Shown: one piece after another, positions 40,837 to 49,430 of the stretch | How the letters are laid out: the number at the start of each line of letters is the position of its first letter | How positions within the stretch are numbered: the stretch's first letter is position 1 | Source of the DNA: Deltaproteobacteria bacterium | GTDB taxonomy: Bacteria; Desulfobacterota; Desulfuromonadia; Desulfuromonadales; Geopsychrobacteraceae | DNA length: 64,000 bases | Assembly (NCBI GenBank): GCA_024280335.1 | Contig: JAJRQI010000034.1 | Coordinates: forward strand, 186,001 to 250,000 | Reading direction: 5' to 3' | Made by a program: the position numbers and the translations under genes | The notes under the pieces: model-generated | What the model saw: only the letters and a program-made list of their open reading frames with translations | The model's database searches: none | Told to the model about the DNA's origin: nothing

Positions 40837-41595
40837 TCACGGTAAAGCCTCTATCGGCAGATTTTCCGGTGGCTGCAAATGAAACCGCTCAGCTGCGGGA
40901 GCGATATTGATCTGCAGCTCGTTGAAGTTGAGTGCCAGTTTGGTCTGCTCCGCCGGCAGCTCAACCTGGATACGTCGCGGAAATTGATCTTCTGCGTCGA
41001 TGTTCTGAAACAGAACCTCTAGAAAGCGCTCGCCCTGGACAAAATAACGGCTGCCGACCAAACGCAACTGTTGATCAAACAGCAGTTCCTGCTCACGATT
41101 ATCCGCAATCAGGCGCAACAGCAGCTGGCCGTCGATAAGTTTGACTTCGTTCTGCTGCGCGGCAATCAGCGGCGGATCGTACAGCAACAGGCGCACCAGA
41201 TTGGTTATCGACAAGGGGACCCGGGTAAAGCGGGCCAGATTTTCATCAGTGGCCGCCCCGCGGAAAAAGCGACCGGGGGCCGGGGTGTTGAGAAAAACGG
41301 ACAATTCATCGCCGTCGGACGTGAGCTGCAGGACCAGCTGACCAAAACCGGTCAGCACGTCAGCGCGCAACCGGTCCGGTTTCTCCAGCAGTAAAAACTG
41401 CTGAGTCGATCGGTATTTGCCCTTGATGGTCAGGCCGACTTTCGCCGCAGCATCCAGAGACACAACCTTGCCGGTGGTTTCAGTCAGGCGCTGCAAGAGA
41501 CGCTCGGCAGTCGGCACTTCTGTCCAGGTCGGCTCGGGCGGCCGGGCACAGGAGACCGGCAGAAACAAAAGCAGGAACAGGATAAAGCGGAGCAT
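40837..41595 (-). CDS. DUF4292-like outer membrane lipoprotein
   Basis: This 252-residue protein has a lipoprotein signal (FILFLLLFLPVSC, Cys at 16). The body is predicted to be mostly beta-strand: VSLDAAAKVGLTIKGKYRST, LLLEKPDRLRADVLTGFGQL and VLQLTSDGDELSVFLNTPAP, resembling the LolB/LolA-like half-barrel of DUF4292. It is known as a family of predicted outer membrane lipoproteins of uncertain role. Its start overlaps the TPR protein stop by 1 nt. Confidence 0.75.
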   Translation of the reverse strand: MLRFILFLLLFLPVSCARPPEPTWTEVPTAERLLQRLTETTGKVVSLDAAAKVGLTIKGKYRSTQQFLLLEKPDRLRADVLTGFGQLVLQLTSDGDELSVFLNTPAPGRFFRGAATDENLARFTRVPLSITNLVRLLLYDPPLIAAQQNEVKLIDGQLLLRLIADNREQELLFDQQLRLVGSRYFVQGERFLEVLFQNIDAEDQFPRRIQVELPAEQTKLALNFNELQINIAPAAERFHLQPPENLPIEALP

Positions 41596-43331
41596 CAGTT
41601 ATTCTTCCGCAGGATGATCTGCAATTTCTCTTCGACCCCCTCAGCTTGAGGATCGATTTCCAACACCTTGCGGTAGGCTTCGACAGCCTCTTCCCACAAG
41701 GTCAGGGATTGATAAAGATCACCGAGATGTTCCAGGATAACCGGATCGTCCGGCTGCAAGTTGGAGGCTTTTTCCAACTGTTCGCGACTCTCCTCAAAGC
41801 GGCCCAGCTTGAAATAGATCCAGCCCAGAGTATCGATGATATAACCGCTTTTCTTGCTCGACAGAGCTTTCAGCGTACGGCTTAAGGCCAGCTCCAATTC
41901 TTCATCGTTTTCGGCCTGGTGGTAAGCAACAAAATTGAGCGCATCGGGATGATTGCCGTTCAACTGCAGGACCTGCTGCATCAGCTCCAAAGCCTTGCCC
42001 CGTTCGCCACGTTTCTCGTGAACAACGCCGAGCTGGTAAAGCAGGTCGACATTGTGGGGAAACTGCTTCAGTCCGGCGGCAATGACCTCTCCAGCCTCGT
42101 CCAGTTGCTCACGATCACCAAGAAAAATAGCCAGGTAGTAGTAGATCTCCGGCCTCTGAGTCCCCTGCACGATAACCCTGCGTAACGCGTTGATGGCTTC
42201 TCCATCCTGCCCGGCAGCCCTGTAAAGGTAGGCCATCTGCAGAATCGCCTCAGCAAAAACAGCCGATGATTCCTTAATCGGTGCCATCACCTCAATCGCA
42301 TCGGTATTACGTCCCTGACTGAGCAGCGAAAGTCCTAAGTAATAGCGATTCTCATCAGTCTCGGGATTTTGGTTCAGCAACGCGCGGAAAATCGCTTCTG
42401 CCTGCGTCCAATTCTTAAGTTCCATCTGAATCAGACCGATCCTGCCGAAAATCTGTTGATTGCCCGGCAGCTGTTGCCGAATCGCTTGAAACTGCTCCAA
42501 AGCTTCCAGCAGTCGTTTCTGTTTCAAGTAGAGAAACGCCAGCTGTTCGCGCACGGCAACAGCACGCGGGTTTCCGGCAATCCCCTGACGGTAGAGTTCG
42601 TAGGCTTCGGCTTGCAGTTGCTGAGTTTCCAATAATTTTCCGTATTCAAGCACAGCCTGTTGATGTGCCGGATAATCAGCCAACAACGCACGATAGGTCG
42701 CCATCGCCTTGTCGAACTGAGCGGTCTCCTGATAAAAACGGGCCAAAGAAAGCCTGGCTAGTTTGGCTTCCGGATGCTTGACAACCAGCGATTCGAGCAC
42801 TTCGATGGCCTCATCGTTGCGCTGCTGGCGCCCCAAAGCCATCGCCAGACGCATCTGCAACAGCTGCCTGTCCGGTGCCGACGTCAAGGCCTTGCGGTAG
42901 TGGCTGACGGCTTCAGCATGCTGGTTGCGATAACTGAACAGATCTCCAAGCAGTTCATGCGTTTCCACCTGCTCGGGGTGTTTCTGCAGCAGCTTTTGCA
43001 GGATTTCAATCGAGCGATCTGCTTCATCCAGATGCAGCAAGGCTTTAGCCAGACTCAATTGTAAATAGTCCGCTCGTGGATCAAAACTGATCGCTCGTTC
43101 GAGGGCAGATATCGCCTCCGGCCAGCGCTCTTCAACAGCAAGAACGCGAAATTGACTGAACGCAAAAAGGGCCTTGGCGTCGGCATCTGCCAGTTCGGAG
43201 CGATAAAACGGTCGATCGTCGGAAGGTTGCAGCGGTCCCTGCAAACCGGCGCAGCCGGAAAGGAAAAACAGAATCAGAACAACAATGTAGCTGCGGTGAA
43301 ATATGATTGCCCGGAAATGATTGTTCGGCAC
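41595..43331 (-). CDS. TPR-repeat lipoprotein
   Basis: From the GTG at 43331 (AAAGGG about 7 nt upstream) the protein is 578 residues with a lipoprotein signal (YIVVLILFFLSGC). The rest is at least twelve tandem tetratricopeptide repeats, recognisable by repeated A-x-Y/F-x-K-A-L-x2-P patterns such as AVSHYRKALTSAPDRQL, AYRKVLEIDPQAEG and the FVKHPEAKLARLSLARFYQE type units. A longer in-frame start at 43412 would bury the signal behind 27 residues. TPR lipoproteins act as scaffolds at the outer membrane. It is the first gene of the long operon that continues into the peptide transporter. Confidence 0.85.
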   Translation of the reverse strand: MPNNHFRAIIFHRSYIVVLILFFLSGCAGLQGPLQPSDDRPFYRSELADADAKALFAFSQFRVLAVEERWPEAISALERAISFDPRADYLQLSLAKALLHLDEADRSIEILQKLLQKHPEQVETHELLGDLFSYRNQHAEAVSHYRKALTSAPDRQLLQMRLAMALGRQQRNDEAIEVLESLVVKHPEAKLARLSLARFYQETAQFDKAMATYRALLADYPAHQQAVLEYGKLLETQQLQAEAYELYRQGIAGNPRAVAVREQLAFLYLKQKRLLEALEQFQAIRQQLPGNQQIFGRIGLIQMELKNWTQAEAIFRALLNQNPETDENRYYLGLSLLSQGRNTDAIEVMAPIKESSAVFAEAILQMAYLYRAAGQDGEAINALRRVIVQGTQRPEIYYYLAIFLGDREQLDEAGEVIAAGLKQFPHNVDLLYQLGVVHEKRGERGKALELMQQVLQLNGNHPDALNFVAYHQAENDEELELALSRTLKALSSKKSGYIIDTLGWIYFKLGRFEESREQLEKASNLQPDDPVILEHLGDLYQSLTLWEEAVEAYRKVLEIDPQAEGVEEKLQIILRKNN

Positions 43332-43546
43332 ACACTGACCCTTTAAAATAGAGCTGCCTTCCCACAATCGGGACAGCAGTGGCAGCAAGAATAATCTATT
43401 GATAACTAGCACACCCAGACAAACAGCGTCAAACCCTTAAAGGGTCCCGGTCAACACTTTACAGCAGTGAAATCTCTGATAAATTTCAAAAATGATCTGT
43501 CGATATCAAGTGCGTTGGAAAACCGCTTACGCGTGTCTGAAACAGG

Positions 43547-43614: not shown

Positions 43615-43860
43615 ATGATGAAAGACCCTCACGGGAATTCAACAAAAGAAGCCTGGATCCTCTGCCTGATTCTGGGCATTATCATGATCAATTTCCCCTT
43701 TATTCACATTTTCAGCAATGAAGACCTGATCTTTGGCCTGCCGACACTGGTGCTCTATTTCTTTGTCGGCTGGCCGGCGTCCATTCTGGTGATCTGGTTC
43801 TTTGCCAGACGCAACGGTGCCGAAGACGAAAACAGCAGTGTCGATACCGGGAGAGAGTAA
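43615..43860 (+). CDS. Small two-span membrane protein upstream of symporter
   Basis: This 81-residue (or 80 from the second ATG at 43618) protein has two hydrophobic segments, WILCLILGIIMINFPFIHIF and PTLVLYFFVGWPASILVIWF, joined by a short polar loop, with a charged tail. Small proteins of this layout commonly accompany sodium/solute symporters (DUF3311/DUF4212-like) and are thought to be auxiliary subunits. The symporter-fusion gene starts 3 nt after its stop. The GGGG ribosome-binding site is better placed for the second ATG. Confidence 0.8.
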   Translation: MMKDPHGNSTKEAWILCLILGIIMINFPFIHIFSNEDLIFGLPTLVLYFFVGWPASILVIWFFARRNGAEDENSSVDTGRE

Positions 43861-43863
43861 CCG

Positions 43864-46800
43864 ATGATCTCTGCCAAAACCGTCCTGCTGATCTCTCTGG
43901 CCTATTTCGCCCTGCTGTTCCTGGTTGCCTATTGCGCCGGGAAGCGACGCGAAACAAAGCGCAGTCTTCTTTCCAATTCTTACGTCTATTCCTTTTCTCT
44001 GGCGATTTACTGCACCAGCTGGACATTTTACGGCAGCGTCGGCAGGGCGGCGACCAACGGTCTTGAATTCCTGCCGATCTACCTGGGGCCGACGCTGATC
44101 GCATTCACCTGGTGGTTTTTCCTGCGCAAAATGGTCCGAATCAGTAAACAGCAGAATATCGTCACCATTGCCGACTTCATCTCCAGCCGCTATGACCGTT
44201 CGGCGCTCCTCGGAGCGATTGTCACCCTGTTCTCGATCTTCGGCATCATGCCCTATATCGCCCTGCAACTTAAAGCAATAGCCCACAGTATCGATCTGCT
44301 TTCGACACCGCTGACGGCACCGGAACTGGGCTTCTACGCGCTGAGCAACAAACTGCCGCCCTATATCGATACGGCCTTCATTGTGGCCTTGGTGCTTGCT
44401 CTGTTCGGGGTTCTGTTCGGCGCCAGACATCTTGACTCGTCCGAACGACACGAGGGGCTGGTGGTCGCAGTGGCGTTCGAGTCACTGGTTAAACTGGTCG
44501 CATTCATAGCGGTCGGAATTTTTGTCACCTACGGCCTGTTTGACGGGTTTGCCGATATTTTTCAGCGTTTCTTCGAGCAGTTCCCGGAACGCCGCGAGCT
44601 GTTCCGCCTGGGGACGGAACAGACGCCGTACACCAAGTGGTTCACGCTGATTATCCTGTCGATGATGGCGATCATGTTTCTGCCCCGGCAATTTCATATC
44701 ATGATCACGGAAAACGCGGATGAGAACCACATCAAAAAAGCGATGTGGCGCTTTCCAGCCTACATGTTTCTGATCAATCTGTTCGTCATTCCGATTGCTC
44801 TTGGCGGCATGATTCTCAACGGCGGCGACACCTCGCAGGCGGACTTCTTTGTTCTCACCCTGCCTCTGTCCGCGGGACACCCCTGGCTGGCGCTATTGGT
44901 CTTTATCGGTGGACTTTCCGCCTCCGCCGGAATGGTGATGGTCTCCTCGGTAACTATTTCAACCATGATTCTCAACCACCTGGTGATGCCGTGCATCCTC
45001 AGGCTGAAACTCAACCGTCAGGATTTTTCCGGGGTTCTGGTCAATCTGAAGCGGTTCGGGATCGTCGGCGTCGTCTTTCTCGGTTATTTCTACTTCCGCC
45101 TGATCGGCGATTCTTATGCCCTGGTTAATATGGGCTTAATCTCCTTCATGGCCGCAACCCAGTTTGCGCCGTCAGTCATCGGCGGTCTTTACTGGAAAAG
45201 AGCCAATCGCAAAGCGGCAACCGTCGGCCTGTCGCTCGGCTTTCTCCTTTGGTTTTACACTCTGCTGATCCCGTCATTCGTCCGCTCCGGCTGGATCAGC
45301 GCCGATATTCTGCAAAACGGCCTGTTCAATATTGCCCTGTTGAAACCGCTGGAACTGTTCGGCCTGAAAGATTTTGATATTTATACTCACTCGCTCTTCT
45401 GGAGCCTGCTTTTCAACCTGGCTGCCTACCTGTCGCTCTCCTTCTTCACCCAGCAGACCGAAAGCGAGGCGCAACAGGCTAATGAATTTGTCGATGTTTT
45501 CGGTGAGCAGGTTCAACCAACGCAACTGAAACGGATCAGTAAAGCACCGACGATCATGGAATTCGTTGAGCTGATGTCGAAGTTCATTGGAGAAAAGCCA
45601 GCCCATGCGGCAATTACTGATTTTCTCTCCGACCATGAAGTTGATGCGCGTGGAAGCCTGCCGGACCATGAAATTCCGCAATTGAAAATTTTTACCGAAC
45701 GTACTCTGGCCGGTCATGTCGGTGCAGCTCCGGCACGGATCATCCTGGAAAACTACCTCTCCACCCGCGGCAGCGAGATGGAAAATGTCTTCGACATTTT
45801 CGGCACGGTCACCATCAGCCATGCTGCCAGTCGTGAGCAGTTGAGCGTTCTCTACGATGCCTCACAGATCGTGTCAAGTGGCGTCAAACTGCAGGAAACT
45901 CTTGATAATATTCTTGAACTACTGGCACAGCAATTCAAGTTCGACCTCTGTGTCATCCGCTTTCTTGAAGAAAGCAACATGACCTTGGTGGTTAAAAGTC
46001 AAAACGGGATGACTTCAGATCATTTCGGCCAATCGGAACGCAATCTCAATATGGAAACCTATATTGGACAGGCCTTCCTTTCCAATGCCACAACCGTGGT
46101 CAACGACACCGATTTTCTCGACAAACCAGCTTCAGCACAAATCATTCAGCGTGAAGGGATCACCTGTTTCGCCCACACCCCGATCGTTGTTGATGGGGAA
46201 TCAGTCGGTATCTTGTCGGCATTTTCACGCAGTGTAAAAGGGATCTTCACCAGCGAATTCATTGCCCTGTTTGAAAACCTGGCAGGTCAGGTCGGGATCG
46301 CCTGGCGCAACGATAAACAGTTGTACGAATTACTCCATGCGCGAGAACAGGAACGTGAACTGCAGATAGCCAAAGATATCCAGATGAGTTTACTGCCGTC
46401 TGAAATTCCGCAACTGCAGCAAATTGCCTTTGCCGGACTGTGCGTACCTGCTCACCATATCGGTGGCGATTATTACGATTTCATTCCGCGCGATGCCGAC
46501 AGCTTCGACCTGGTTATTGCCGACGTTTCCGGGCACAACCTCGGCTCGGCCCTGATCATGGCGGAAACCAGAACCTTCATCCATGCCCTGCTCGACAGCA
46601 TTGAAACACCAGCAGAAATGCTGCATGCTTTAAACCGATTTTTTTACAACAACATGAGCTGTTCCGACCTTTTTGTCACCATGTTCTACCTGCAATATCA
46701 TGTAAATACTCGGACACTTAGCTACACCAGCGCCGGACACAACAATCCGCTCCTCTGGCGCTGTCGACAAAAAAACCTGGTGTTGCTCGATGCTGAAGGA

Positions 46801-47079
46801 TTGATTTTCGGCATTAGACAGGATGTCGACTTCGAACAGAAGGCCACCAAACTGGAGCCAGGTGACACCCTGCTGCTCTATACCGATGGCATCATTGAGG
46901 CTGAAGACAGTAGCGGTGAATTTTTCGGCATTGAGCGACTGGGGAAACTGATCGAGGAATGTGACCATATGCCGCCGCAGGAACTGATCGACAGAATTAT
47001 GGATCAAGTCCGTATTTTCACCGGCTTGCGCCACTTCAACGACGACATCACACTGGTGGTCATGAAAGTGATCGAGTAA
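43864..47079 (+). CDS. Sodium/solute symporter - GAF - SpoIIE phosphatase fusion
   Basis: This is a 1071-residue three-part protein. Residues 1 to about 530 are a sodium:solute symporter domain with about 13 membrane spans (SLAIYCTSWTFYGSVGRAA, then NIVTIADFISSRYDRSALLG and ASAGMVMVSSVTISTMILN are family blocks). A linker leads to a GAF domain at about 660-820. From about 838 (QIAKDIQMSLLPS) it becomes a SpoIIE/RsbU-type PP2C phosphatase with the metal-binding motifs GGDYYDFI (866), ADVSGHN, TDGIIEAE (1007) and NDDITLVV (1058). Transporter-kinase fusions of this type are known (CbrA-like); here a phosphatase replaces the kinase. It would couple substrate or ion sensing to dephosphorylation of the STAS protein encoded next. 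Confidence 0.92.
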   Translation: MISAKTVLLISLAYFALLFLVAYCAGKRRETKRSLLSNSYVYSFSLAIYCTSWTFYGSVGRAATNGLEFLPIYLGPTLIAFTWWFFLRKMVRISKQQNIVTIADFISSRYDRSALLGAIVTLFSIFGIMPYIALQLKAIAHSIDLLSTPLTAPELGFYALSNKLPPYIDTAFIVALVLALFGVLFGARHLDSSERHEGLVVAVAFESLVKLVAFIAVGIFVTYGLFDGFADIFQRFFEQFPERRELFRLGTEQTPYTKWFTLIILSMMAIMFLPRQFHIMITENADENHIKKAMWRFPAYMFLINLFVIPIALGGMILNGGDTSQADFFVLTLPLSAGHPWLALLVFIGGLSASAGMVMVSSVTISTMILNHLVMPCILRLKLNRQDFSGVLVNLKRFGIVGVVFLGYFYFRLIGDSYALVNMGLISFMAATQFAPSVIGGLYWKRANRKAATVGLSLGFLLWFYTLLIPSFVRSGWISADILQNGLFNIALLKPLELFGLKDFDIYTHSLFWSLLFNLAAYLSLSFFTQQTESEAQQANEFVDVFGEQVQPTQLKRISKAPTIMEFVELMSKFIGEKPAHAAITDFLSDHEVDARGSLPDHEIPQLKIFTERTLAGHVGAAPARIILENYLSTRGSEMENVFDIFGTVTISHAASREQLSVLYDASQIVSSGVKLQETLDNILELLAQQFKFDLCVIRFLEESNMTLVVKSQNGMTSDHFGQSERNLNMETYIGQAFLSNATTVVNDTDFLDKPASAQIIQREGITCFAHTPIVVDGESVGILSAFSRSVKGIFTSEFIALFENLAGQVGIAWRNDKQLYELLHAREQERELQIAKDIQMSLLPSEIPQLQQIAFAGLCVPAHHIGGDYYDFIPRDADSFDLVIADVSGHNLGSALIMAETRTFIHALLDSIETPAEMLHALNRFFYNNMSCSDLFVTMFYLQYHVNTRTLSYTSAGHNNPLLWRCRQKNLVLLDAEGLIFGIRQDVDFEQKATKLEPGDTLLLYTDGIIEAEDSSGEFFGIERLGKLIEECDHMPPQELIDRIMDQVRIFTGLRHFNDDITLVVMKVIE

Positions 47080-47125
47080 CCACCGGCTATTTTGCAACAA
47101 ACAACATTGCTGACAAAGAATACTG

Positions 47126-47131
47126 TATAAT
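47126..47131 (+). promoter_or_regulatory. Possible -10 element before the STAS gene
   Basis: A perfect TATAAT lies 49 nt before the STAS ATG, in the 100-nt gap after the symporter-phosphatase gene. No good -35 lies at the usual distance (TTGCTG is only 13 nt upstream). An additional internal promoter for the antagonist and kinase genes is possible but weakly supported. Confidence 0.25.
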
Positions 47132-47179
47132 CACAAAAGTCTCATAATACTTTAACAGAAACGAATAAGGGAGTCATTT

Positions 47180-47515
47180 ATGCAACTGAATATTGTCGAA
47201 CAGGGGGAAATTGTCAAAATCGAGGTGCAGGAAGAACGGATGGATGCGCACAACAGTGGCGACCTGAAAGAGCAGATGCTGCAACTTTTTGATGAAGGGA
47301 AATGCAACCTGATCATCGACCTGACAGCTGTCCGCTTTGTCGATTCATCGGGGCTTGGCGCTCTGGTTTCCGGTTTTAAAAACGCCAGCGCACGTGACGG
47401 CAACCTCAAGCTCTGCTGCCTGCAACCGCAAGTTCGTTCCATGTTTGAACTGACCAGACTGCATCGCGTTTTCGAAATTTTCACCTCTGTCGAAGAAACG
47501 ATGGAGAGTTTCTAA
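47180..47515 (+). CDS. STAS-domain anti-sigma factor antagonist (RsbV/SpoIIAA type)
   Basis: This 111-residue single STAS domain has the phosphorylation loop FVDSSGLGALV; Ser56 or Ser57 is the expected phospho-acceptor, as in SpoIIAA Ser58. The unphosphorylated form would bind the anti-sigma kinase encoded 41 nt downstream and release its partner; the SpoIIE-type phosphatase encoded upstream would regenerate it. AAGGGAG lies 7 nt before the ATG. Confidence 0.93.
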   Translation: MQLNIVEQGEIVKIEVQEERMDAHNSGDLKEQMLQLFDEGKCNLIIDLTAVRFVDSSGLGALVSGFKNASARDGNLKLCCLQPQVRSMFELTRLHRVFEIFTSVEETMESF

Positions 47516-47556
47516 GCCTCTTCTTCAGGTCGAACCTTTCGCTCAGGAAAGTCGCC

Positions 47557-47979
47557 ATGTCGAAACAGATTAAAATCGACATAACAGTCCCTAACCAGAC
47601 CAGATACCTTGCGGTTATCGGGAAAATAACCGAATGCCTGGTACATTCGCTCGGCTACTATTCCGGCGACAAGACTGAACTTGCCTACCAATTAAATCTG
47701 GTCGTAACCGAAGCAACCGCCAACGCAATGTGCCACGCCAACGAATGTGACCCGAGCAAGCAGATCAAAGTATCGATCTCTGTTGCTGATGATCTGTTAA
47801 AGGTCTGCGTCTTTGATCAGGGTAGCGGGTTCGATATCAGCAAACTGGCGAAGACCAGGGCCAAAGATACTGACGAAGGTGGACGTGGGGTACCGATTAT
47901 TTATAAATTAATGGATCGTGTTGATTATGTGAAATCGGAGACAGGCTATGTCCTGAAAATGACCAAACGCTTGCACTGA
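47557..47979 (+). CDS. RsbW/SpoIIAB-like serine kinase (anti-sigma factor)
   Basis: This 140-residue GHKL ATPase has the N-box VVTEATANAMCHANE (Glu52, Asn56), G1 box FDQGSGFD (86-93) and G2 box GGRGVPII (108-115), followed by the strands of the SpoIIAB fold. Such kinases phosphorylate their STAS partner and bind a sigma factor or another target. The target gene is not in this window. AGGA lies 9 nt before the ATG. It ends the plus-strand signalling operon. Confidence 0.92.
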   Translation: MSKQIKIDITVPNQTRYLAVIGKITECLVHSLGYYSGDKTELAYQLNLVVTEATANAMCHANECDPSKQIKVSISVADDLLKVCVFDQGSGFDISKLAKTRAKDTDEGGRGVPIIYKLMDRVDYVKSETGYVLKMTKRLH

Positions 47980-48031: not shown

Positions 48032-48654
48032 TCAATCCATCAGCAGATAATCGAGCAGTTGCAAATGGTTGTCCAGCGATAACTCCCCGGAAACCAGTCC
48101 ACCGTAACCGGAGAACCGTACCCCGGCGCGCAAGGCCGCCTGCTGATCCAACTCAGAGTCACCGATAAACAGACAATGCTTCGGCAATACTCTTAATTGC
48201 TCTGCTGCCAACAGCAACATATCCGGGGCCGGTTTAGGCCGAGTCACATCGCGACTGGTCACCACTGCGGAGAAATATTTTCCAATCTGAAGTGAGAGAG
48301 GATCGGTTCGATGCTGGTCCCTCTGTTCGTTGCAACCGCCAACGGGTACTGGGTCGACAACTGCTCCAGAACCTCTTCCAAGTTCGGCTCCGGCTGCATG
48401 TAAGGGATAAACTCACGATAATCGAGAGTCGCTGCATAGTTAAGCGCTGGCCGTAAGTCATCTTCAGACATCAGTTCAGCAAGCACCACCGGAGAGCTTG
48501 CGGTATGGCAGAGGTGGGCTTTTTGTGACTGCTCCGCAGCTACCGGCGGGTAATCAAACTCAACAAAAATCCGATTGTAATACGCCAGATTCGCCTGACG
48601 ACTTTCAAATAAAACCCCATCGCAATCGAAGATGACTCCCTCAATCCGACTCAT
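48032..48654 (-). pseudogene. HAD-family phosphatase with a frameshift
   Basis: The two halves of one HAD hydrolase are in different frames. The N-terminal part (from ATG 48654) reads GVIFDCDGVLFESRQANLAY with the nucleophile Asp motif and VATNRGTSIEPILSHFRLEN, then ends at a TGA. The C-terminal part continues VVTSRDVTRPKPAPDMLLLA and CLFIGDSELDQQAALRAGV. The reading frames meet at about 48272-48283; inserting one T (AAAAT[T]ATTTC) would restore LENYFSAVVTSRDV. It is either a recent pseudogene or a sequencing error. The start overlaps the lgt stop by 4 nt (ATGA). The domain is like phosphoglycolate phosphatase. Confidence 0.8.
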
Positions 48655-49430
48655 GCGCGCTCCTGTCTCAGCAGATAAATAAGTCCGGCAATCCCGACCA
48701 GAATCATCGGCAGGGACAATAATTGCCCCATTGTCGCCCCGCCCCATAAAAACCCGAGATGCTCATCCGGTTGGCGAACAAACTCAACGAGGAAGCGGAA
48801 ACTGCCATAACCAAGCAAAAATGTAAAAGTCGGAATCCCAAGACGCACCCTGCAGCGATGTAAAGCGTAGATAATGATCAACAGCAACAACCCTTCGAGT
48901 CCAGCCTCATAGAGTTGACTGGGGTGGCGCGGCAGAGGACCTGCGGCAGGAAAAACAACGCCCCACGGCAGATCGGTAACCCGCCCCCAGAGTTCAGCAT
49001 TGATGAAATTTCCGAGACGGCCGAATCCAAGTCCGATCGGGACCGCAACAACGACAATATCACCAATCATCAGCAGGGGGATTTTGTATCTATAGCTGTA
49101 AAACAATAAAACGCTCGCCACCCCGAGCAACCCGCCGTGAAAACTCATCCCCCCCTCCCAGACATAGAGAATCTGTAGCGGGTTGGCGAGATAATAATCA
49201 GCATTATAAAAAAGCGTATACCCTAATCGCCCCCCCAGAACGACCCCGAGTACCCCATAAAACAACAGGTCTGAAATCTGCTCTTTGTTAACGCCAAAAT
49301 TGCGCAACCGGCAGACATGGCACATGGCAAAGTAACCACCGATAAAACCGAGCAGGTACATCATCCCGTACCAACGAACAGCAAGTGGCCCGACACTGAA
49401 AATAACCGGATCGATCTGCGGAAAAGTCAC
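48651..49430 (-). CDS. lgt: Prolipoprotein diacylglyceryl transferase
   Basis: This 259-residue membrane enzyme has seven spans. The N-terminal PVIFSVGPLAVRWYGMMYLLG, GGRLGYTLFYN, EGGMSFHGGLLG with the conserved His, and the Lgt signature GLGFGRLGNFINAELWGR are all present. It attaches diacylglycerol to the lipobox Cys of lipoproteins, several of which are encoded in this window. It lies between a pseudouridine synthase gene and the broken HAD gene, whose start overlaps its stop. Confidence 0.96.
   Translation of the reverse strand: MTFPQIDPVIFSVGPLAVRWYGMMYLLGFIGGYFAMCHVCRLRNFGVNKEQISDLLFYGVLGVVLGGRLGYTLFYNADYYLANPLQILYVWEGGMSFHGGLLGVASVLLFYSYRYKIPLLMIGDIVVVAVPIGLGFGRLGNFINAELWGRVTDLPWGVVFPAAGPLPRHPSQLYEAGLEGLLLLIIIYALHRCRVRLGIPTFTFLLGYGSFRFLVEFVRQPDEHLGFLWGGATMGQLLSLPMILVGIAGLIYLLRQERA

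Follow-up and report, generated by a model that had tools for sequence, protein, structure and literature searches.

The stretch of DNA analyzed here, a 64,000-nucleotide segment of contig JAJRQI010000034.1 from a member of the Geopsychrobacteraceae (hereafter the window), encodes a real and conserved four-gene module, which we interpret, with a probability of roughly 0.55, as a nutrient-sensing partner-switching module. In order along the + strand, on which all features of the module lie, the list of open reading frames (ORFs) yields a small membrane protein of 81 amino acids with two membrane spans (43615..43860), a protein of 1071 amino acids in which an SLC5-STAC membrane front end is fused to a GAF domain and a SpoIIE phosphatase (43864..47079, also supported by Pfam and by full-length relatives), a STAS protein resembling RsbV and SpoIIAA (47180..47515; 111 amino acids, Pfam STAS, 3.8e-23), and an RsbW-type GHKL kinase (47557..47979; 140 amino acids, Pfam HATPase_c_2, 2.6e-22). 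Under this interpretation the phosphatase of the fusion, with its catalytic aspartates intact, would act on the neighboring STAS protein. A sequence-only reading of the locus had recognized the same run of genes, and all four ORFs are present at the positions given above. Its description of the fusion as a symporter-GAF-PP2C protein with intact phosphatase motifs, of the STAS protein as carrying a DSSG loop, and of the last gene as a GHKL kinase is likewise borne out by the domain matches and alignments presented below. It had overlooked the STAC domain, the extent of the homology between the front end and CbrA, the pairing of this front end with histidine kinases in other proteins, and the family (f17) in which STAS and RsbW occur in the absence of the fusion.

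A translated search of the fetched loci recovered the fusion in 51 loci besides the window, and in 44 of these the small gene, the fusion, the STAS gene and the RsbW gene follow one another in the same order. The loci were chosen to cover families and long contigs, and 44/51 is not the ratio of a random sample; one genome is also counted twice among them, as it is in the front-end alignment and tree described below (L018 and L080, with identical front ends). The conservation of the fusion, STAS and RsbW as a unit makes control of a partner switch by the receptor the best reading of the locus. The sequence-only reading had called for just such a survey of fusions and their STAS and RsbW neighbors, and had named an annotation or assembly artefact as the finding that would undo it. 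This is excluded, because the full four-gene order is found again in the 44 loci, which all come from other records, and the fusion recurs in many genomes.

The wider spread was assessed by searching 277 class genomes, 136 of which belong to the order; this search covers the class, and the record search reaches close relatives. The resulting tallies of 136/136 and 277/277 count any matching piece and not fusions as such, and matches between 1e-100 and 0 are possibly kinase-type relatives or fragments. By hand count, 38 of the 277 class genomes have no fusion match better than 1e-100, namely 14 of one family (f17), 8 of one genus (g72) and 16 scattered ones, several being incomplete drafts. Among the matches listed, full-length relatives of the fusion show 51 to 78% identity.

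By sequence, the fusion is a member of the wider SLC5/STAC sensor group, with a CbrA-type "transceptor" front end. The Pfam SSF model matches it weakly (2.4e-5, 23.8 bits against a cut-off of 22.8), and chain 10ed_A, from a PDB entry labelled "histidine kinase", matches its residues 5-635 (E 4.5e-72); these matches delimit an SLC5 domain at about residues 1-540 (43864..45483). The span of the 10ed_A match indicates that a STAC domain sits between the SLC5 and GAF domains, at about residues 560-635 (45541..45768), where the structural model has helices at 564-634. The entry is probably the SLC5-STAC structure of Pseudomonas CbrA described in PMC13022988, whose numbering and content it fits. In CbrA, histidine is reported to sit in the SLC5 pocket and K196 to fill the Na2 site, consistent with proton-driven transport (PMC13022988).

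The front ends of 52 fusions (the window included) and 10 kinase-type relatives were aligned with CbrA and with the one ordinary SSF transporter of the same genome. K210 (codon 44491..44493), which the alignment equates with CbrA K196, is lysine in 52/52 fusion rows and 10/10 kinase-type rows and leucine in the ordinary transporter, a thin control of one sequence. This lysine would fill the equivalent of the Na2 site, which accordingly appears not to be free for sodium, and its invariance argues against Na+ coupling. Hence, the earlier proposal that a transport or ion-sensing domain controls an RsbU-type phosphatase survives in its first half, with the conserved unit of receptor and switch genes in its favor, whereas sodium or ion sensing by the front end is set aside. 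The pocket retains several residues of CbrA (Y49 in 45/52 rows, W53 in 50/52, F69 in 47/52, Y73 in 49/52 and F428 in 49/52) and differs in others, with T51 in place of Ser (49/52), T54 in place of Ala (50/52) and S266 in place of Phe (47/52), the last being F248 in CbrA. A pocket that is CbrA-like yet not identical suggests that the ligand is likely to be a small solute, without implying histidine.

The GAF domain, at about residues 661-815 (45844..46308; Pfam GAF_2, 1.5e-14), matches PDB chain 2qyb_A over 169 residues (E 4.2e-32). This entry, named "Membrane protein, putative", covers the GAF region alone, and its name gives no function; we take it to be a Geobacter sulfurreducens protein and so possibly part of an ortholog. 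From the GAF domain, a continuous helix predicted by AlphaFold2 at residues 797-843 (46252..46392), which may act as a signaling linker, runs into the SpoIIE/PP2C phosphatase domain at about residues 850-1071 (46411..47076; Pfam SpoIIE over 879-1069, 1.9e-53). The AlphaFold2 model of the whole fusion is weak, with a mean predicted local distance difference test score (pLDDT) of 58.7 and a predicted template modeling score of 0.35 from 13 alignment rows, the soluble part lying mostly at pLDDT 60-86. In the phosphatase, D869, D872, D887, D1008, D1060 and D1061 are invariant in 52/52 fusion rows, and the nearest solved relatives are response-regulator and SpoIIE phosphatases; no HATPase domain was matched by Pfam in the fusion chain. 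One fusion gene (L099:7807-11016, from G105, a single-contig genome) is interrupted by a single in-frame TAG at codon 689, in the part encoding GAF, with no other stop up to codon 1071; the gene could be broken or recoded, or the TAG could be an error of sequencing.

The two partner proteins are similarly intact. The DSSG loop is present in 40/40 STAS rows, and E52, N56, D87, G89, G91, G109 and G111, which form the N and G boxes of RsbW, are invariant in 39/39 rows; these rows are ORFs picked from the scans of neighborhoods and of family f17, and represent a subset of the loci. Located from the sequence, S56 of the loop (codon 47345..47347) is presumably the phosphorylated serine, an assignment made by analogy to RsbV/SpoIIAA. 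The nearest solved relatives are the anti-sigma antagonist 1sbo for the STAS protein (E 2.9e-14) and RsbW 6m36_A for the kinase (E 1.9e-10). Median identity to the window is 70% for STAS (39 rows) against 50% for the presumed kinase (38 rows), and the better conservation of STAS hints that it has several binding partners. The genome itself yields four STAS matches, two of them belonging to a stressosome-like cluster and a third to a frame of 577 amino acids, and a single RsbW-type match above 50 bits; with one such match and the other STAS proteins mostly placed elsewhere, the pair in the window is the natural substrate set. The stressosome-like cluster (G000:C71:51960-54033; L060, L075) encodes RsbRD_N-STAS, STAS, two HATPase, PP2C and RsbU_N proteins. 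A second RsbU-like phosphatase of 656 amino acids, with a HAMP domain and a sub-threshold Cache match, is encoded on another contig (G000:C69:41223-41798; L002) and is a possible second input to the STAS protein of the window.

The small upstream protein has no Pfam or NCBIfam match, and a translated search found its relatives upstream in 46/51 fusion loci and 8/10 kinase-type loci. It has no sequence match to the solved chain of CbrX (best E 2.1); its position and two-span length fit this two-helix peptide, which is encoded just upstream of CbrA and is reported to stay bound to it (PMC13022988). By analogy of position and topology, the small protein may be considered CbrX-like.

In the partner-switching module that we favor, a small solute, more likely proton- than sodium-coupled, would bind the SLC5 pocket, and its binding or transport would shift the placement of the STAC domain. 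The GAF domain, which may itself bind a cytosolic ligand, would relay this change through the linker helix to a phosphatase dimer. The active phosphatase would then strip the phosphate from S56 of the STAS protein, which in its dephosphorylated form would capture RsbW and thereby cause the latter to release its target, and rephosphorylation of STAS by RsbW would reset the switch. The STAS-RsbW core, which outlives the loss of the fusion, would have further uses or inputs.

Several observations weigh against such a receptor-governed switch. The membrane part of the AlphaFold2 model is of low confidence, and CbrX is reported to be dispensable, being unneeded for growth on histidine (PMC13022988). 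Six of the 51 fusion loci, besides one at a contig end, lack an adjacent STAS-RsbW pair. The fusion is also not the sole reason for the existence of this pair, which persists without it in 13 of the 14 genomes of family f17 (all without a fusion match better than 1e-100; the fourteenth, without RsbW, is 67% complete). Finally, the SLC5 part of CbrA is not essential for signaling according to work cited in PMC9100948 and PMC7918813, which report it as non-essential for perception and point to a cytoplasmic signal. This last point favors a possible, though clearly less probable, version of events in which the partner switch holds, the SLC5-STAC portion serves chiefly for anchoring or modulation, and the sensing, of a cytosolic ligand or a redox cue, falls to the GAF domain. 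The conservation of the GAF domain in the fusions and in their closest kinase relatives would agree with this; on the other hand, the SLC5 pocket and K210 are conserved beyond the needs of an anchor, and the distant kinase relatives L023 and L113 have swapped GAF for PAS and kept SLC5. A further alternative, namely that the fusion works as a transporter with a cytoplasmic tail that controls uptake, signaling to a gene switch being secondary or absent, appears very improbable. The authors of the STAC domain did propose regulation of solute transport (PMC4834066), and CbrA is reported to be capable of histidine uptake (PMC13022988), but this view leaves the conserved STAS-RsbW pair unexplained, and the P. 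putida SLC5 or SLC5-STAC part alone is reported to have given no growth on histidine (PMC13022988).

The fusion loci that depart from the four-gene order comprise two with only the small gene beside the fusion (L096, the contig end mentioned above, and L107) and five with neither the small gene nor STAS nor RsbW beside it (L085, L132, L137, L138 and L139). The solo fusions among them (L107 and the latter five) are one of the grounds for supposing that the phosphatase of the fusion acts on some other substrate and that the adjacent STAS-RsbW pair is a separate switch, fed for instance by the HAMP-SpoIIE protein of contig C69. The presence of this second RsbU-like phosphatase in the same genome points in the same direction, and the surrounding gene order is also often conserved, which lowers the weight of adjacency. 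To these can be added the f17 loci (L124-L130): in 7/7 fetched, STAS and RsbW occupy the site bounded by the TPR and lgt genes, as in the window, with the small gene and the fusion missing and the DSSG motif retained in every STAS protein. The retention of the pair at the same site without the fusion indicates that the STAS-RsbW core also serves a purpose independent of it, the transceptor phosphatase being one dispensable input. We nonetheless consider a separate switch unlikely, given that all six genomes with solo loci (G001, G026, G183, G208, G223 and G256) have an RsbW match elsewhere, which in G001 and G026 adjoins another copy of the fusion, and that PPM phosphatases of such architecture are reported to act on STAS proteins (PMC11418112). 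The solo copies L085, L107, L132 and L138 may have as their targets either the same STAS protein or different ones. In G001 (L085), two copies of the fusion lie within 8 kb.

The co-occurrence of the genes bears on the same question. Good genomes, defined as at least 90% complete and at most 5% contaminated as rounded in the tables, number 187, and presence of RsbW was scored from hand-made lists as any match with E up to 0.001, which includes a few weak matches. RsbW is missing in 12 of these genomes, and a fusion match better than 1e-100 is missing in 8 of these 12 against 13 of the 175 that bear RsbW (Fisher p 2.4e-6, a value that ignores kinship). In the other four RsbW-less genomes the fusion is represented by a fragment (G009), a match cut short (G188) and matches of 3e-169 (G214) and 5e-161 (G238), the last two of which could be kinase-type. 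The occurrence of the fusion in just 4/12 such genomes, where in at least two cases (G009, G188) it is a fragment or is cut by the end of a contig, again speaks against a separate switch. Overall, the fusion is rare without RsbW, and RsbW is found fairly often without the fusion.

For the receptor-controlled partner switch, the output would have to be sought elsewhere in the genome: no sigma factor gene or other switch target is encoded at the locus, as the sequence-only reading had already noted for adjacent sigma genes. Of the five Sigma70_r2 proteins in the genome, two are ECF factors and the others are RpoD, FliA and a protein resembling RpoS, for which the RpoS model scores best yet stays under its cut-off; no SigB/SigF-type sigma is among them. 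FliA, found above its cut-off in 192/277 genomes, is ruled out as an obligatory target by family f3 (22 genomes, G002-G023), which has no FliA-level match and yet has RsbW in 20/22. RpoS is a weak lead. A match to it better than 1e-80 is missing in 11 of the 187 good genomes, 4 of which also lack RsbW (p 0.0026), a co-loss for which kinship and draft quality are confounders, and the other 7 of the 11, including the single-contig genome G182, retain RsbW. Control of RpoS by partner switches has been reported for Pseudomonas (PMC6482189). When 47 neighborhoods, the window included, were scanned for a conserved output gene, many neighbors proved to be conserved in order regardless of the fusion. 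The one additional co-oriented gene, for a kinase matching the Pfam APH/AAA_33 models (e.g. L021:4198-5772), immediately precedes the small gene in 23/51 fusion loci and adjoins STAS in 3/7 f17 loci (L124, L126 and L127), with none seen at the window; as a conserved output it is a lead and not an explanation.

The front end is shared by proteins with a different output. In the relatives L013, L016 and L115, Pfam detects GAF, HisKA and HATPase_c domains behind the same SLC5-STAC front end, and L014, L015, L017 and L025 are classed with them by alignment. L023 and L113 combine PAS with a kinase, and L114 has a kinase, receivers and Hpt. In a front-end tree of 52 fusion and 10 kinase rows, a single change (support 97/92) divides the proteins with a phosphatase from those with a kinase, with long branches flagged. 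The branches leading to CbrA and to the ordinary transporter are very long, so that the tree gives no direction for this exchange. The sharing of one front end by kinase and phosphatase outputs fits the proposal of PMC12143880 that sensors linked by coiled coils can swap a histidine kinase output for a PPM phosphatase or the reverse. A bolder extension of the partner-switching interpretation, which at present must be regarded as doubtful, is that the module is a class-wide switch of the Geobacter/Desulfuromonas group, born by such an exchange of kinase and phosphatase outputs, in which a proton-coupled transceptor sets a general sigma factor, RpoS being the best guess.

Within the window, the intergenic gaps between the small gene, the fusion, STAS and RsbW are 3, 100 and 41 bases, and the larger flanking ORFs (41595-43412 and 48259-48747) both lie on the - strand. 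A scan of the locus for promoters and terminators returned nothing stronger than weak consensus matches.

If the favored interpretation is true, the module represents a transporter-type receptor that acts on a partner switch and has been retained across a whole class of bacteria of environmental importance, and it opens a way into the adjustment to carbon supply in the metal- and sulfur-reducing relatives of Geobacter. The kinase and phosphatase forms with their one front end constitute a natural pair for testing the exchange of sensors via linker helices, and family f17 is a natural deletion for testing what the fusion input adds to the STAS-RsbW core. No published description of this module was found in the open-access literature, to which the search was largely confined, most subscription papers lying outside it.

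Among known systems, the SLC5/STAC histidine kinases CbrA, CrbS and RpuS share with the fusion the SLC5-STAC front end, the Na2-site lysine and most pocket positions, and the small two-span gene just upstream has a counterpart by position in CbrX of Pseudomonas (PMC13022988). The fusion departs from these proteins in having GAF where they have PAS and a SpoIIE/PP2C phosphatase where they have a histidine kinase, and genes for STAS and RsbW take the place of that for the response regulator; it falls outside the SLC5/STAC histidine kinase family because SpoIIE replaces the C-terminal HisKA and HATPase_c domains. The RsbU/RsbP-RsbV-RsbW and SpoIIE-SpoIIAA-SpoIIAB switches have in common with the module the PP2C phosphatase, the STAS protein with its DSSG motif and the GHKL kinase with intact boxes, whereas the sensor here is a transporter-type membrane domain and the locus has no sigma gene. 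The Actinobacterial SSS-HATPase_c-GAF-PP2C_SIG proteins (PMC7918813), compared by their description only, also unite SSS, GAF and a PP2C phosphatase, but carry the kinase in the same chain, while here it is a separate gene; the passage on them in that paper makes no mention of STAC, of a STAS partner or of this bacterial class. The module thus presents known parts in a new combination, in which an SLC5/STAC receptor is joined to partner-switching instead of a two-component output.

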